A DNA stretch of 64,000 bases from Buttiauxella noackiae ATCC 51607. GTDB taxonomy: Bacteria; Pseudomonadota; Gammaproteobacteria; Enterobacterales; Enterobacteriaceae. The first letter of the stretch is position 1. Every line of letters starts with the position of its first letter. The DNA lies in contig NZ_LXEO01000002.1 in the NCBI RefSeq assembly GCF_001654865.1, forward strand, positions 1 to 64,000. Reading direction: 5' to 3'. The notes under the pieces are model-generated. The model saw nothing but the letters and a program-made list of their open reading frames with translations. It was not told where the DNA came from and did not search any database. The position numbers were made by a program, and so were the translations under genes. Of the stretch, positions 7,012 to 16,041 are shown in pieces.

Positions 7012-7968
7012 ATGAATGAATTACCGAAAACTAAAAATTATCACTTCACTGAAAATTACCCGCGTGACATGAAAGGTTATGCGGGTAAGCCTCCACATGC
7101 GCAATGGCCAAATAACGCCCGGGTAGCTGTGCAGTTCGTTCTCAATTTTGAAGAGGGTGGTGAAAACCACGTTCTGCATGGCGACAGCGGTTCGGAACAG
7201 TTCCTTTCCGATATCATCGGTGCCGCCAGTTTTCCTGACCGCCATATGTCGATGGATTCCCTCTATGAATACGGTTCTCGAGCCGGGTTCTGGCGCATCC
7301 ATCACGAGTTCCAAAAACGCGGCCTGACGATGACAGTCTTTGGCGTAGCAATGGCACTGGCGCGTAACCCTGAAATTGTTGAAGCAATAAAAGCAGCTGA
7401 TTACGACGTGGTAAGCCACGGATGGCGCTGGATCCACTACCAAAATCTGGATGAAGCCACTGAGCGTCAGCATATGCATCAGGCTATCGAAATCCTTGAA
7501 GATTTATTCGGCAGCAAACCGCTCGGTTGGTATACCGGCCGCGACAGCCCGAATACACGTCGGCTGGTGGCAGAAAATGGCAGCTTCCTGTACGACAGCG
7601 ATTATTACGGCGACGATCTGCCATTCTGGAGCAAAGTCAGCTGTAGTGATGGTTCGACTAAACCCCACCTGGTTGTGCCTTACACGCTTGATGCCAACGA
7701 TATGCGCTTTGCAACCGCGCAGGGTTTTAACACCGCCGAGCAGTTTTATACCTATCTGAAAGACAGCTTTGATGTGTTGTACGAAGAAGGGGAAACGGCA
7801 CCGAAAATGATGTCTATCGGCATGCACTGCCGTTTACTGGGGCGGCCGGGTCGTTTCAGAGCATTACAGCGTTTTCTGGATTATGTGCAACAGCATGATG
7901 ATGTGTGGATATGCCGTCGTCAGGAGATTGCCGAGCATTGGGTGAAGACGCATCCATATTACGAATAA
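7012..7968 (+). CDS. hpxB: Allantoinase HpxB (PuuE, polysaccharide-deacetylase fold)
   Basis: HpxB hydrolyses allantoin to allantoate. The 318-residue protein belongs to the PuuE branch of the polysaccharide deacetylase (NodB-like) fold, not to the metal-dependent AllB allantoinases. It shows LNFEEGGE near residue 45, YEYGSRAGFWRI near 84, the SHGWRW segment and the YTGRDSPN segment characteristic of PuuE. Length fits the family (about 300-320). It follows hpxA with a good ribosome-binding region (AAGGAACC) and is probably co-transcribed with it. Confidence 0.95.
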   Translation: MNELPKTKNYHFTENYPRDMKGYAGKPPHAQWPNNARVAVQFVLNFEEGGENHVLHGDSGSEQFLSDIIGAASFPDRHMSMDSLYEYGSRAGFWRIHHEFQKRGLTMTVFGVAMALARNPEIVEAIKAADYDVVSHGWRWIHYQNLDEATERQHMHQAIEILEDLFGSKPLGWYTGRDSPNTRRLVAENGSFLYDSDYYGDDLPFWSKVSCSDGSTKPHLVVPYTLDANDMRFATAQGFNTAEQFYTYLKDSFDVLYEEGETAPKMMSIGMHCRLLGRPGRFRALQRFLDYVQQHDDVWICRRQEIAEHWVKTHPYYE

Positions 7969-9980: not shown

Positions 9981-11567
9981 TTAAAAGCCAGCTGCGCTGC
10001 CGTTGCTGCGTGGATCATAAGCTCCTTCAAGCATGCCGTTGGTATGGCGCACAATGGCTCCGGCATGACCTACAGCTTCGCTAAAATCAGGTAATGCTTC
10101 GACTTCATGACCCAATTCGCTTAGTGCTGCGAAGGTTTCAGGGCTAAATCTGGCTTCTAATTTCAGGCTGTCTGAGGCTTGCCCCCAGGTTCTACCCAGT
10201 AACCAACGTGGAGCGGTAACGGCTTCTTGCAGTGGCATCCCCTGGATCACATGGCGGGTAAAAATAGCCGCCTGAGTTTGCGGTTGCCCGTCGCCGCCCA
10301 TCGAGCCGTAAACCATCGTTCTACCATCGGCAAGTCGTGCGGCTGCCGGATTCAGGGTATGGAACGGTTGTTTTCCGGGGGCAAGGCTTAATAAATCTTC
10401 GGGTTTGAGGCTGAACGCTGCTCCACGGTTTTGCCACAGAACACCGCTTTTTGGCAGTACCACGCCGCTGCCAAACTCGTGGTAAATACTTTGAATAAAC
10501 GACACAGCCAATCCGCTGCTATCAATCACGCCCATCCAGACTGTATCGCCAGGGCCTTTACCTGTTCCCCAGTCAGCGGCCTTTGTGTCGTCAATTTCTG
10601 CGGCCAGTGCGGTGAGCGGCTCTGGCTCCAGCAGGCTTTGAATTGAAGTGGTGATATGGCGTGGATCGGTGATGTATTTATCGCGTAGCGTAAAAGCTTT
10701 TTTGGTGGCCTCAACGATACGATGAACAGTTTGGGTTTCGTTTGCCTGCGCCATTTCTAAATGATCGGTGATCCCAAGGATCGCCAGCGACACCAGACCC
10801 TGAGTGGGGGGCGTCATATTGTAGATGTCACCATGCTGGTGGTGCAGATGCAGCGGAATACGGCGTTTGGCCCGGTGAGCTGCAAGATCTTGTAAGTTTA
10901 AAGGCATGCCTAATTCAGCAAGTTCGTTGGCAATTAAGATGGCTAACGGACCGCGATAAAAACTATCAAGCCCTTCAACGGTCAGGCGTGTCAGCGTTTC
11001 GGCTAGTCGCGGTTGGGTGAAACGACTACCTGCATGGGGAATTTCACCACGATCTAAAAACGTCTCAGCGAAACCGGAGATATTAACCAGCTCGTCGTAT
11101 TTGCTATGGGTCGCAAGCGCCTGCGATTGGGTCACCGGAATACCATCAGCCCCATAGCGAATTGCATCCGCCAATAAACGCGAGAGCGGCAGTTGCCCGC
11201 CGCCAAGCTGCCTGGAGATTTTTAGTGCTTCGTCCCAGCCGCTAAGCGTTCCTGGCACGGTTAGCGCAGCTTTCGGGCCACGATGAGGGATAGATGCTTC
11301 GCCTGCGTAAAATTCCAAAGATGCGTGTGAACCCGCGGCACCGCTGGCATCAATCGCAATCGGCTCACCTTCTGGTGGCACTATCAACCAAAAACCATCG
11401 CCGCCAATGCCATTCATGTGAGGATAAACAACGGCAATAGTTGCCGCTGCTGCCACCATTGCTTCGATAGCATCCCCACCGTGGCGTAATACGGATAATG
11501 CGGTCTCACTGGCTAAGTGGTGCGGTGTAACGGCCATACCGGAAGGTGCCATATTGCTTTGCATCAT
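9981..11567 (-). CDS. hpxW: Oxamate amidohydrolase HpxW (gamma-glutamyltransferase fold)
   Basis: HpxW is an Ntn-hydrolase with the gamma-glutamyltransferase fold; the Klebsiella enzyme hydrolyses oxamate to oxalate and ammonia. The 528-residue precursor should self-cleave before the nucleophile Thr342 in GPGDTVWMG, giving chains of about 341 and 187 residues. The small chain carries SMGGDGQPQ, the family's conserved glycine-rich segment. No signal peptide is seen, unlike periplasmic GGT. It is the first gene of hpxWXYZ. The start at 11567 (or the adjacent ATG at 11564) lies 117 bp from the divergent hpxU. Confidence 0.94.
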   Translation of the reverse strand: MMQSNMAPSGMAVTPHHLASETALSVLRHGGDAIEAMVAAAATIAVVYPHMNGIGGDGFWLIVPPEGEPIAIDASGAAGSHASLEFYAGEASIPHRGPKAALTVPGTLSGWDEALKISRQLGGGQLPLSRLLADAIRYGADGIPVTQSQALATHSKYDELVNISGFAETFLDRGEIPHAGSRFTQPRLAETLTRLTVEGLDSFYRGPLAILIANELAELGMPLNLQDLAAHRAKRRIPLHLHHQHGDIYNMTPPTQGLVSLAILGITDHLEMAQANETQTVHRIVEATKKAFTLRDKYITDPRHITTSIQSLLEPEPLTALAAEIDDTKAADWGTGKGPGDTVWMGVIDSSGLAVSFIQSIYHEFGSGVVLPKSGVLWQNRGAAFSLKPEDLLSLAPGKQPFHTLNPAAARLADGRTMVYGSMGGDGQPQTQAAIFTRHVIQGMPLQEAVTAPRWLLGRTWGQASDSLKLEARFSPETFAALSELGHEVEALPDFSEAVGHAGAIVRHTNGMLEGAYDPRSNGSAAGF

Positions 11568-11634
11568 CGTTTTATCTCTCAGAACGGAAGCTGGATAATA
11601 TATTTAAGCAAGAGATGTTCCAGGTTGACGAGGT

Positions 11635-11666
11635 TTGTTTCACTGTGTCAGGCTCGAATGAAACAA
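11635..11666. promoter_or_regulatory. Inverted repeat TTGTTTCA-N16-TGAAACAA, candidate HpxU operator
   Basis: A perfect 8-bp inverted repeat (11635-11642 and 11659-11666) lies in the short region between the divergent hpxW and hpxU. The same TTGTTTCA octamer recurs upstream of hpxJ at 12685-12692, with AATGAAACAA shared on the opposite strand. RpiR-family regulators bind such dyads, so HpxU is the obvious candidate, but binding is inferred. Confidence 0.5.
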
Positions 11667-11683
11667 TAGTTACAGAGGTCATC

Positions 11684-12523
11684 ATGAAACAATTAGACGA
11701 GCGCTTAAGAGCAACATACGAGCAGCTTTCCCCGCAAGAACAGCGTGTTGCTGCCTTTATTGTCGACCATTTTGATGATCTGATTAGCTACAACAGCGCT
11801 GAGTTGGCCCGTCTTTCAGGCGTATCTAAAGCTACTGTGAGTCGCCTCTTTAAGCGCCTGGGTTATGACCGATACAAGGATATGCGTGAAGAATTGCGAA
11901 CCTTGCGTCAGAGCGGAATGCCCCTGACGGAAAACCGCGATGCTGTACAAGGTAACACGTTACTGGCACGGCATTACAAACAGGAAATGGCCAACCTGAC
12001 ACACTGGGTTAGCTTGTTGGATACTCAACAGTTTCTCGATGTTGTCACGGCACTTACTTCAGCAAAACGTATTTTTATTATTGGCTTACGAAATTCATGG
12101 CCTGTGGCAATGCACTTACGCCAGCAGTTATTACAAGTTCGTAGCGATGTCTGGTTATTGCCGCAACCAGGACAGACGCTGGCAGAAGAAGTGGTGGATA
12201 TCAACGAACATGACTGTGTCATCGCTATCGCATTCCGCAGAAGACCCCGCATCATCAAGCCACTGCTGGCTAATTTGCACAAGCGGCAGGTGCCGCTGCT
12301 GGTAATGAGCGAAGCACAGGGCTCTGGTTTGACCCCCTACTGCCGTTGGCACTTTGCCGCACCGCTGGATAGCGTTTCAGCTTTCGATAGCTATAGCAGC
12401 GCAATGAGTCTGGTGAACCTGTTAGCCAACGCAGTGTTACACGAAGCGTTAACCACTGGTCGTCAGCGCATTCATCATATTGCCGAACTCTATACGGAGC
12501 TTGATGAGTTAGAACAACGCTAA
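11684..12523 (+). CDS. hpxU: RpiR/MurR-family transcriptional regulator HpxU
   Basis: This 279-residue protein has an N-terminal RpiR-type helix-turn-helix (about residues 18-77, containing AELARLSGVSKATVSRLFKRLGY) and a C-terminal SIS sugar-isomerase-like ligand domain (about 125-255). In Klebsiella, HpxU is an RpiR-type repressor of allantoate-catabolism genes. The ATG at 11684 follows a GAGG site; the longer open frame upstream overlaps hpxW and was rejected. It is divergent from hpxWXYZ and upstream of hpxJ-hpxKQ-hpxT, so it can control both. The inducing ligand is unknown. Confidence 0.93.
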   Translation: MKQLDERLRATYEQLSPQEQRVAAFIVDHFDDLISYNSAELARLSGVSKATVSRLFKRLGYDRYKDMREELRTLRQSGMPLTENRDAVQGNTLLARHYKQEMANLTHWVSLLDTQQFLDVVTALTSAKRIFIIGLRNSWPVAMHLRQQLLQVRSDVWLLPQPGQTLAEEVVDINEHDCVIAIAFRRRPRIIKPLLANLHKRQVPLLVMSEAQGSGLTPYCRWHFAAPLDSVSAFDSYSSAMSLVNLLANAVLHEALTTGRQRIHHIAELYTELDELEQR

Positions 12524-12713: not shown

Positions 12714-13955
12714 ATGTCAGATATTCAGCACTTCGCGCAAATCAATCCGCCACACCGTTTGTTGATGGGGCCGGGTCCAATCAATGCCGATCCACGTGTC
12801 TTGCGGGCAATGGCGAGCCAGCTAATTGGGCAGTATGACCCGATCATGACTGGTTATATGAATGAAGTGATGGTGCTGTATCGCGAGCTTTTCCGTACGC
12901 AAAACCGTTGGACAATGCTGGTGGATGGGACTTCCCGTTCTGGTATCGAAGCGATTTTGCTGTCAGCGATTCGTCCGGGTGACAAGGTTCTGGTGCCGGT
13001 CTTTGGGCGTTTCGGCCATCTGTTATGTGAAATAGCACGTCGATGCCGTGCTGAAGTTCACACCATTGAGGCTCCCTGGGGCGAAGTGTTTACCCCGGAT
13101 CAAATTGAAGACGCCATCAAAACGGTTAAACCGCGTTTGCTGTTGACCGTTCAGGGCGACACGTCCACCACTATGTTGCAGCCGTTGGCCGAACTGGGCG
13201 AAATCTGCGATCGTCATGGCGTGCTGTTTTATACCGATGCTACCGCGTCTTTTGGCGGCAACGTGCTGGAAACGGACGCGTGGGGGTTAGACGCTGTATC
13301 TGCGGGTCTGCAAAAATGCCTCGGCGGTCCATCTGGTAGTTCGCCGATAACGCTCAGCGCACAGATGGAAGAGGTGATCCGCCGCCGTAAATGTGTTGAA
13401 GAAGGGATCCGTACGGCAGCTCACCAGGACGGTGATGATGAAATGATCTATTCGAATTATTTCGATCTTGGCATGGTGATGGATTACTGGGGACCGGAAC
13501 GTCTGAACCACCATACCGAAGCCACCAGCATGTTGTTTGCCGCCCGTGAATGCGCGCGCATTATTCTCGAAGAAGGTCTGGATGTGGGGATCGCTCGTCA
13601 CGAACTGCACGGGCGTGCGCTGGTAGCGGGGATTCAGGGAATGGGCCTGGAAACCTTTGGCGACCTGCAACACAAAATGAATAACGTTCTGGGGGTCGTA
13701 ATCCCTTCAGCGGTTCATGGTGAAGAAGTGCGCAAAATGCTGCTGGAAGATTTCCATATCGAAATCGGCACCTCGTTTGGCCCGTTGCAGGGCAAAATCT
13801 GGCGCATCGGCACTATGGGGTATAACGCGCGTAAAGATTGCGTGCTGCAAACGCTCACCGCGCTGGAAGCGGTGCTTAATCGTCTGGGCTTTAAAACGAC
13901 GCAAGGCGCGGCGATGCAGGCCGCGTGGGATACCTATTCTCAGGAAAGCCGCTGA
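12714..13955 (+). CDS. hpxJ: (S)-ureidoglycine-glyoxylate aminotransferase HpxJ (PucG-like)
   Basis: This 413-residue fold-type I PLP aminotransferase of the alanine-glyoxylate/serine-pyruvate group is most like PucG, which transfers the amino group of ureidoglycine to glyoxylate to give oxalurate and glycine. The PLP lysine is Lys201 in AGLQKCLGGPSG. The N-terminal LMGPGPINADPRV and the TDATASFGG segment carrying the cofactor Asp are also visible. The start follows AAAGGAAATGCC. The stop overlaps the next start (TGATG), so hpxJ and the hpxK-hpxQ fusion are translationally coupled. Confidence 0.94.
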   Translation: MSDIQHFAQINPPHRLLMGPGPINADPRVLRAMASQLIGQYDPIMTGYMNEVMVLYRELFRTQNRWTMLVDGTSRSGIEAILLSAIRPGDKVLVPVFGRFGHLLCEIARRCRAEVHTIEAPWGEVFTPDQIEDAIKTVKPRLLLTVQGDTSTTMLQPLAELGEICDRHGVLFYTDATASFGGNVLETDAWGLDAVSAGLQKCLGGPSGSSPITLSAQMEEVIRRRKCVEEGIRTAAHQDGDDEMIYSNYFDLGMVMDYWGPERLNHHTEATSMLFAARECARIILEEGLDVGIARHELHGRALVAGIQGMGLETFGDLQHKMNNVLGVVIPSAVHGEEVRKMLLEDFHIEIGTSFGPLQGKIWRIGTMGYNARKDCVLQTLTALEAVLNRLGFKTTQGAAMQAAWDTYSQESR

Positions 13956-15709
13956 TGGTCAAACATGTCATGAATGTAACGCAGGCCGGTGCTGCCGCAC
14001 GCCGCGTGATGCAGCGTGCGGATGAATTGGCGCAAATCAGCGAAACGCCGGGCCAACTGACGCGCGTCTATCTTTCCCCCGAACATCTGCGTGCCAACTA
14101 TCTGGTTGCCGGTTGGATGGAACAAATCGGCATGACCACCTGGCAGGATGCGGTAGGCAATATTTGTGGGCGTTACGAAGGTGCAAAAGAAGGCGCACAG
14201 GCCATTTTGCTGGGCTCGCATCTGGACACGGTGCGCAATGCCGGGCGCTACGATGGCATGCTTGGTGTGTTAGCCGCGCTGGAAGTCGTCTCTTTCTTGC
14301 ATCAACACGAAATTCAATTAGAGCAAGCGATTGAAATTGTGGGTTTTGGTGATGAAGAAGGCACGCGTTTTGGCATCACATTATTGGGTAGCCGTGGCGT
14401 GACCGGAACGTGGCCGGATAACTGGCTGGCGTGTGAAGACGCGGCGGGGGTTAGCGTTGCGCAAGCATTGGTCAATGCCGGTTTTGACCCTTCTCGAATT
14501 AGTAGTGCTGCCCGTAGTCCGGAAGAGTTTAGTGCGTACCTTGAATTGCACATTGAGCAAGGACCCGTGCTTGAACAGAAGAATCTGGCGATTGGCGTGG
14601 TTACCGCCATCAATGGAGCTCGCCGTTTAAAATGCAGCTTTATCGGTGAAGCAGGCCATGCGGGTACGGTGCCGATGGCAATTCGTAAAGATGCCCTCGC
14701 CGCTGCTGCTGCCTGGATGACTTACGTCGAAAGCACGACCCGCATGTACAGCCCGGACATTGTGGCAACAATTGGTTCACTGCAATGTTTGCCTGGTGCG
14801 GCAAACGTCATTCCCGGTGAAATTCAACTGACGCTGGATATCCGCAGCCCAAGGGATGCTGATCTTGAAGCGTTGCTGGAAAATCTTTTAGCGGAAGCTC
14901 ATCAAATCGGTGCCCAACGTGGTGTCACTTTCAGTGCGGAAACCTACTATTCGATTCCCGCCACGCCGTGCGATGCCCGTCTGCAACAGTGTTTAACTTC
15001 TGCCGTAACCGCTGTTCAGGGGCGTAGTTTGTCGCTGCCGAGTGGGGCGGGGCATGACGCGATTGCCATTGCGGAGCGTTGGCCTGTCGGGATGCTGTTT
15101 GTGCGCTGCGGGCGTGGAATTAGCCATCATCCTGCGGAATCGGTAATGGAAGCCGATGTGGGGCAGGCGGTGCAGGCCTTTGCGCAAACGGTCATCGCGC
15201 TGGCTGCGAAAAACACGCTGGCTGAATTTAACAATGCGCCAGAAAACGAAGCGCTGGATCTAGTAGCTCCGTGCGTCGCGATTTCAGCCTGGGCTGAAAG
15301 CTTGGTGGCTGCGCGCCCATTCCAGACGGTCGACGCGTTAAAGCAATATGCCACGCAACTGGCCCAGGATTGGGGGCGAGCAGAGCTAAATCAGGCGCTT
15401 ACGGCTCATCCACGCATCGGCGAAAAAGCTCAGGGCGAAGGTAAAGAAGCAGAGCTTTCTGAAGGTGAACAATCCGCGGTGGATACGCAAAACCGTGCGT
15501 TAACCCTCGCGCTGGCGCAGGGCAACGCTAAATACGAAGCTTGCTTTGAGCGCGTGTTTTTGATTCGCGCCAAAGGGCGCAGCGGTGATGAAATCCTTGC
15601 TGAACTCCATCGCCGGTTGAATCAAACGCCCGCAGAAGAAGAACTTGAAGCCCTGGAACAGTTACGCCAAATCACATTATTACGCCTGGAAGGAGTGTTT
15701 GCACAATGA
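13955..15709 (+). CDS. Fused allantoate amidohydrolase (HpxK) - OHCU decarboxylase (HpxQ)
   Basis: One 584-residue frame joins two full-length enzymes. Residues about 1-420 are an M20-family allantoate amidohydrolase (GSHLDTV, GRYDGMLG, DEEGTRFG, HIEQGPVLE, SGAGHDA metal and substrate motifs), converting allantoate to ureidoglycine, CO2 and ammonia. Residues about 421-584, from TLAEFN, are a 2-oxo-4-hydroxy-4-carboxy-5-ureidoimidazoline decarboxylase with the catalytic His in AHPRIG, the SEGEQ glutamate and the AKGRS arginine motif. That domain makes S-allantoin. There is almost no linker. In Klebsiella the two are separate genes. The start at 13955 overlaps the hpxJ stop and follows AGGAAAG; the hpxT start overlaps its stop by 4 bp. 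Confidence 0.95.
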   Translation: MVKHVMNVTQAGAAARRVMQRADELAQISETPGQLTRVYLSPEHLRANYLVAGWMEQIGMTTWQDAVGNICGRYEGAKEGAQAILLGSHLDTVRNAGRYDGMLGVLAALEVVSFLHQHEIQLEQAIEIVGFGDEEGTRFGITLLGSRGVTGTWPDNWLACEDAAGVSVAQALVNAGFDPSRISSAARSPEEFSAYLELHIEQGPVLEQKNLAIGVVTAINGARRLKCSFIGEAGHAGTVPMAIRKDALAAAAAWMTYVESTTRMYSPDIVATIGSLQCLPGAANVIPGEIQLTLDIRSPRDADLEALLENLLAEAHQIGAQRGVTFSAETYYSIPATPCDARLQQCLTSAVTAVQGRSLSLPSGAGHDAIAIAERWPVGMLFVRCGRGISHHPAESVMEADVGQAVQAFAQTVIALAAKNTLAEFNNAPENEALDLVAPCVAISAWAESLVAARPFQTVDALKQYATQLAQDWGRAELNQALTAHPRIGEKAQGEGKEAELSEGEQSAVDTQNRALTLALAQGNAKYEACFERVFLIRAKGRSGDEILAELHRRLNQTPAEEELEALEQLRQITLLRLEGVFAQ

Positions 15710-16041
15710 GCCAACTGAGCACGCATATTCTTGATACGGCGTTGGGGAAACCGGCCGCCGATGTGGTGATTTACCTTGAGCATCAAATTGCAGGAAATTG
15801 GGAAAGGATTGCACAGGGAGTCACTGATGCTGATGGGCGGATGAAGGATTTCACTTCGGAGCAATTAGCGGCAGGGCGCTACCGTTTGAGCGCAGAAATC
15901 GGTTCGTATTTTGCGAAAACGCACCGAGAGTCGTTATATCCCTCGGCGCAAATTGACTTTGTTATTACGCAAAACGGCGGGCATTATCACCTGCCGTTTT
16001 TAATTTCTCCCTGGTCGTGGTCGACTTACCGAGGAAGTTAG
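15706..16041 (+). CDS. hpxT: 5-hydroxyisourate hydrolase HpxT (transthyretin-like)
   Basis: HpxT hydrolyses 5-hydroxyisourate to OHCU, the step before the decarboxylase encoded in the preceding gene. The 111-residue protein has the N-terminal LSTHILDTALGKPA motif and ends in the diagnostic YRGS tetrapeptide of transthyretin-related HIU hydrolases. There is no signal peptide, so it is cytosolic. Its ATG overlaps the upstream stop (ATGA) and follows a GGAG-type site, so it is the last gene of a coupled hpxJ-hpxKQ-hpxT operon. It converges on yafV with a 6-bp gap. Confidence 0.96.
   Translation: MSQLSTHILDTALGKPAADVVIYLEHQIAGNWERIAQGVTDADGRMKDFTSEQLAAGRYRLSAEIGSYFAKTHRESLYPSAQIDFVITQNGGHYHLPFLISPWSWSTYRGS

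Follow-up and report, generated by a model that had tools for sequence, protein, structure and literature searches.

The window analysed here, a 64,000-nucleotide stretch of Buttiauxella noackiae DNA, contains at 13955..15709 (+) a single stop-free frame of 584 aa in which an allantoate amidohydrolase (HpxK) is followed, without a linker, by an OHCU decarboxylase (HpxQ). From comparisons of sequences we consider it very probable that this HpxK-HpxQ protein is a genuine bifunctional enzyme, produced by a single joining of neighbouring genes and kept where urate is used. Both halves were recognized by curated models. NF006773, the NCBIfam model for allantoate amidohydrolase, matched residues 1-417 (13955..15205, +) with 744 bits against a cut-off of 584 and spanned model positions 1-417 of 419, while TIGR03180, the NCBIfam model for OHCU decarboxylase, matched residues 425-581 (15227..15697, +) with 170.5 bits against a cut-off of 139.4. 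Pfam placed Peptidase_M20 (PF01546) at residues 85-413, M20_dimer at 219-316 and OHCU_decarbox (PF09349) at 426-579. The HpxQ half was also matched by the OHCU decarboxylase structures PDB 5uou and 3o7h, which we take to be Klebsiella pneumoniae enzymes. The original prediction of two complete enzymes adjoining in one frame is confirmed by the open translation and by scores above both cut-offs. Only its boundary at about 420/421 needs adjustment, the joint lying rather at about residues 418-424 (15206..15226, +), between the halves matched by NCBIfam.

The source is a draft assembly of 104 contigs, a circumstance that could suggest an error of assembly or sequencing. We assign this explanation a negligible probability and regard it as ruled out, because the same open frame recurs in 21 further sampled genomes (22 with that of the window, in seven genera), some of them in 2-4 contigs, and in seven named records, at least five of which are the same genomes as sampled ones. 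The named records comprise six of Buttiauxella (83-87% identity; B. massiliensis, B. agrestis, B. brennerae and B. izardii among them) and one of Dryocola boscaweniae (75%). For one of the 22 fused genomes, G388, the HpxK match starts only at residue 87.

The length of the joint is nearly constant. The stretch between the end of HpxK's SHHP-type motif and the FN of HpxQ measures 30 aa in 5, 31 aa in 12 and 32 aa in 5 of the 22 fused proteins, which bears out the claim that essentially no linker is present. The tails of separate HpxK proteins alone measure 25-42 aa (40 cases), and separate HpxQ proteins begin 5-6 residues ahead of FN in 39 of 40. The fused joint is thus roughly as long as an HpxK tail of minimal length and the HpxQ head taken together.

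The residues expected to be needed for both activities are intact throughout, as had been claimed for the window. In HpxK, all 17 positions looked at, including H89, D100, E134, E135, H199, H367 and H391, are identical in the 22 fused and in all 56 other HpxK proteins; H89, D100, E134, E135, H199 and H391 are presumably the residues of the M20 di-metal site, and their retention is in keeping with membership of that family. In HpxQ, 11 of 16 positions looked at are identical in the 22 fused and in all 52 separate proteins. These include H485, E505, Q506, N524, R538 and R577, among which we take H485, E505 and R577 to be the active-site His, Glu and Arg expected of an OHCU decarboxylase; positions 490, 491, 507, 537 and 543 vary. 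Over 21 Buttiauxella pairs the median dN/dS was 0.071 for HpxK and 0.113 for HpxQ, values that are rough because dS for the most part approaches or exceeds 1 but that point to purifying selection on both halves. Given the intact motifs and the low dN/dS, a degenerate second half is unsupported. All 22 fused genomes had the fused domain as their sole OHCU decarboxylase match, with no second one detected, and in each of them hpxT lay at most 160 bp downstream of the fusion and hpxO scored above its cut-off.

The genes around the fusion include several of the same pathway. Immediately upstream lies a class V aminotransferase gene (12714..13955, +; PF00266), hpxJ by position, whose product reached no NCBIfam cut-off and would be a ureidoglycine aminotransferase. 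Its stop overlaps the hpxK start in TGATG (13953-13957). Immediately downstream is hpxT (15706..16041, +), encoding a 5-hydroxyisourate hydrolase (TIGR02962, 125 bits against a cut-off of 87), whose start overlaps the fusion stop in ATGA (15706-15709), in agreement with the coupling originally described; it is followed in the window by a CN_hydrolase-family gene. A second hydroxyisourate hydrolase, perhaps of an exported type, is encoded away from the cluster (G000:C37:711-1043) and outscores hpxT. Also upstream of the fusion are an RpiR-type regulator gene, hpxU by position (11546..12523, +; PF01418 and PF01380), a gamma-glutamyltransferase-family gene, hpxW by position (Pfam), genes for HpxX and an AtzE-family amidase (hpxY by position) and a gene for HpxZ, the last three products all above their NCBIfam cut-offs. 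The allantoinase gene puuE (hpxB) is found at 7012..7968 (+; TIGR03212, 528 bits against 425), and an Asp/Glu/hydantoin racemase gene and a purine/allantoin-type permease gene are found farther upstream. A scan for promoters and terminators gave signal at the level of shuffled sequence. hpxO lies outside the cluster (629 bits against 500), so that the genome holds the urate pathway set of hpxO, hpxT, OHCU decarboxylase and allantoinase, each assigned to its family.

In this pathway HpxT produces OHCU, OHCU decarboxylase converts it to S-allantoin, HpxB forms allantoate, HpxK releases ureidoglycine and HpxJ carries out a transamination. The two fused activities are, as stated originally, not consecutive, since the allantoinase step falls between them. 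In Buttiauxella the HpxQ half would decarboxylate OHCU supplied by the product of the next, overlapping gene, the separate allantoinase would open the resulting S-allantoin to allantoate, and the HpxK half would hydrolyse allantoate to the ureidoglycine used by the product of the gene just upstream.

In order to determine the distribution of the fusion, 392 genomes of Enterobacteriaceae were sampled. The whole protein found a match in 190 and the HpxQ half in 93. When a fusion is defined as a frame of at least 581 aa holding both HpxQ and HpxK, the 93 HpxQ-bearing genomes divide into 22 with a fusion, 40 with adjacent but separate genes and 31 with the genes apart, that is, about 10 kb or more from each other or on different contigs, where breaks in drafts could hide some neighbours. 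The fused genomes are from Buttiauxella (g1, 6), Dryocola (g65, 4), g41 (3), g75 (3), g18 (2), g74 (2) and g99 (2), and the proposed database search for the two-domain architecture has therefore found it in seven genera of the family. Among the 40 side-by-side pairs, 10 share a reading frame and 30 do not, and at least 16 overlap through ATGA or T(G/A)ATG. Such overlapping stops and starts offer an easy path to fusion, and one substitution or small indel may be enough to turn side-by-side hpxK and hpxQ into a single gene. The genes are separate in Klebsiella, as the original prediction held. The same two families are present there, but, as in the group with the genes apart, hpxK and hpxQ are separated by about 89 kb in K. 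pneumoniae NZ_CP079635.1 and by about 104 kb in CP125156.1; in the second record the hpxK match is divided over two frames. This record (L232), 5.37 Mb in size and titled 'plasmid', harbours hpx genes and appears to be a chromosome that was mislabelled.

The HpxK-HpxQ order was seen neither in 70 TIGR03180-matching genomes belonging to the order's other families (36 of them above the cut-off; longest frame 331 aa) nor among 65 OHCU frames of at least 430 aa outside the family in a sample of the phylum. The sole plasmid record covering >80% of the query, from Caballeronia insecticola, was rejected; its allantoate-amidohydrolase-type gene ends at a stop of its own and lacks an OHCU domain, and the remainder of the match beyond that stop is a chance extension. 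Ten genomes of 0.5-1.2 Mb (G013, G021, G058, G095, G121, G124, G166, G224, G295 and G354) retain an HpxK homologue (45-59% identity) and are absent from the set of HpxQ matches; these are possibly insect symbionts using allantoate.

A single origin of the fusion is most likely. A quick HpxK tree was built from 78 rows, namely the 22 fused and 40 adjacent cases, 13 of the 31 with the genes apart and three of the four g71 genomes. In it the fused rows fell in a set of 26 together with the three g71 rows and one of the three g67 genomes, with support of 98. In a careful tree of 45 hand-chosen rows, fused, g71 and g67 sequences formed one clade (100/98), in which g71 grouped with Dryocola (96/84) and the position of g67 was weaker (94/87, then 81/78). 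An exclusive clade of the fused HpxK rows was rejected in the careful tree (AU p 2.4e-5). Since the fused HpxK sequences share one clade with two nested genera, a single origin is the most likely reading of these trees. In the HpxQ tree (74 rows) the 22 fused rows are set apart by a branch whose support, 89/85, is not strong, and the HpxQ of g67 falls elsewhere, beside that of g72.

The two nested genera differ in what they have kept. Genus g71, closely related to Buttiauxella and Dryocola, retains hpxJ-hpxK without the HpxQ half, and in all four of its genomes we found no OHCU match, no hpxT match and no hpxO over the cut-off. At two of its loci (L027 and L028), hpxJ-hpxK is followed by the CN_hydrolase-family gene, presumably yafV, that comes after hpxT in the window, and then by a fadE-like gene, which we take to be fadE. 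As OHCU decarboxylase, hpxT and hpxO are missing together, the HpxQ half appears to disappear along with the urate steps. Genus g67 has a standalone HpxQ near hpxT and hpxO in all three genomes. The two patterns together indicate that HpxK persists without HpxQ and that HpxQ tracks the use of urate. The simplest history would involve a single fusion together with a deletion in g71 and, for g67, replacement of the fused half by a separate HpxQ, with the timing of the g71 loss and the order of events being read from the trees. It is possible that g67, as part of the clade, descends from an unfused ancestor. In the ancestor of the Enterobacteriaceae clade that includes Buttiauxella and Dryocola, side-by-side hpxK and hpxQ would have been joined end-to-end by loss of the intervening stop, and the fusion would have been retained where urate is used. 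The route of joining, like the activities of both halves, we infer from sequence.

The same two enzyme families are also found fused in the reverse order. PRK13799/NF010373, an NCBIfam family titled 'unknown domain/N-carbamoyl-L-amino acid hydrolase fusion protein', resembles the Buttiauxella protein in carrying both on a single chain about 590 aa long. It differs in that OHCU decarboxylase comes first and lies on the TIGR03164 side, whereas that of Buttiauxella lies on the TIGR03180 side. Two loci with such an allantoate amidohydrolase (AAH) fusion were scanned, with TIGR03164 matching the N-terminal part of both genes. The gene of L053 (1480-3267) scored 1119 against the PRK13799 cut-off of 1087, and that of L050 (229-2010) scored 991, below it. 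The Buttiauxella fusion, with the order reversed, reached only 395 bits and falls outside the family. The N-terminal 'unknown domain' of PRK13799 is thereby now identified as OHCU decarboxylase (TIGR03164, E 1.4e-50 in L050). In a tree of 69 hand-chosen OHCU rows, including 20 of 27 PuuE-OHCU loci and 16 standalone sequences, the OHCU halves of the two AAH fusions are separated by a branch with 100/100 support, and a constraint placing them in one clade was rejected (AU p 5e-7). To judge from this tree, the opposite-order fusion arose independently.

Fusion of OHCU decarboxylase is in fact frequent in the sampled Pseudomonadota, and the novelty implied at the outset was too high given that an OHCU-first fusion of the AAH type is already an NCBIfam family. 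PF09349 was found in 140 of 398 genomes of a sample of this phylum. With only AAH, PuuE and HpxT tested as partners, the 65 OHCU frames of at least 430 aa from other families comprised 13 OHCU-AAH, 43 PuuE-OHCU and 3 OHCU-HpxT fusions (the OHCU match of one of these being weak and seen only after the limit was relaxed); the other 6 had none of the tested partners in frame. Further OHCU-HpxT fusions were present in a shorter frame (L252) and in the class sample (L054). A 535-aa frame in L058 has OHCU decarboxylase ahead of PuuE, the reverse of the common order. The PuuE-OHCU proteins resemble the Buttiauxella fusion in that OHCU decarboxylase is the C-terminal half of a purine-catabolic fusion, but they join it to allantoinase, which catalyses the step that follows. 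Published fusions include ones between consecutive enzymes of the urate pathway (PMC3646786); the plant OHCU decarboxylase-HIU hydrolase (TTL) and Cryptococcus DAL2,3,3 are further fused enzymes of this pathway according to PMC3646786 and PMC2834698, and they differ in joining consecutive steps and other domain pairs. As judged by titles and the beginnings of abstracts, none of the open-licence papers found describes an AAH-OHCU fusion. The HpxK-HpxQ order is thus undescribed in the literature searched, yet the pair is known to be fused in reverse order.

Why the fusion has been kept is a separate matter, on which a neutral origin is compatible with our preferred explanation. Losing the stop that lay between the overlapping genes may have been harmless and fixed by drift, and the fusion may then persist for want of the new stop, start and ribosome site that splitting would require. 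We regard this history of drift and persistence as a real possibility, though somewhat short of an even chance. A single origin fits such a history, as do the adjacency of hpxK and hpxQ in 40 of the 71 unfused genomes, the missing HpxQ half where the urate steps are missing, the separate gene in g67 and the non-consecutive steps, which permit no direct hand-over. However, the independent reverse-order fusion of the same pair hints at an advantage, and the joint of 30-32 aa is kept in all 22 proteins, though common descent could explain this. The fusion had been proposed to tie the expression of early and late steps; this is reasonable, but adjacency in those 40 genomes may already partly do so. 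The benefit, if any, would be 1:1 co-production rather than channelling.

The original suggestion of a scaffold, in which docking sites on the fusion would hold HpxB (and HpxT) between the active sites and unstable OHCU would be cleared fast, seems to us unlikely. Intermediates with half-lives of 7.2 and 9.6 min, by their context in PMC4562309 HIU and OHCU, would suit it, as would the fusion elsewhere of OHCU decarboxylase to the preceding step, to the following step or to allantoate amidohydrolase. Consistent with it, puuE lies 3 bp (L050) and 7 bp (L053) before the OHCU-AAH gene; in the window, however, hpxB is about 6 kb from the fusion. A bolder version, in which the fusion is adaptive because the steps flanking allantoinase form a docking frame for HpxB, with three steps in one assembly evolved at least twice in opposite orders, we hold to be quite improbable. 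The independent reverse-order fusion is the best hint that there may be a gain beyond 1:1 production. That a separate HpxQ is also made from an internal start is very unlikely. Some fused relatives have an in-frame ATG or GTG close to the old HpxQ start, and in a scan without shuffle control a 4-base ribosome-site-like match with an in-frame start within 25 codons occurred in 11 of 22 fused genes, compared with 28 of 40 unfused ones at the HpxQ start. In those 11, however, the start is a GTG scattered 8-24 codons before FN, and the HpxQ half of the window has neither an in-frame ATG nor a ribosome-site-like match. We rejected the internal start since this same scan gave no signal conserved across the 22 fused genes.

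HpxK-HpxQ is most likely a plain bifunctional enzyme formed from two joined neighbours. It provides a clean natural case in which two non-consecutive enzymes were joined in either order by independent events, and in which relatives with adjacent unfused genes, as well as nested losses, are available for comparison. We believe that it is a good test of whether a step-skipping enzyme fusion pays or merely follows gene adjacency.
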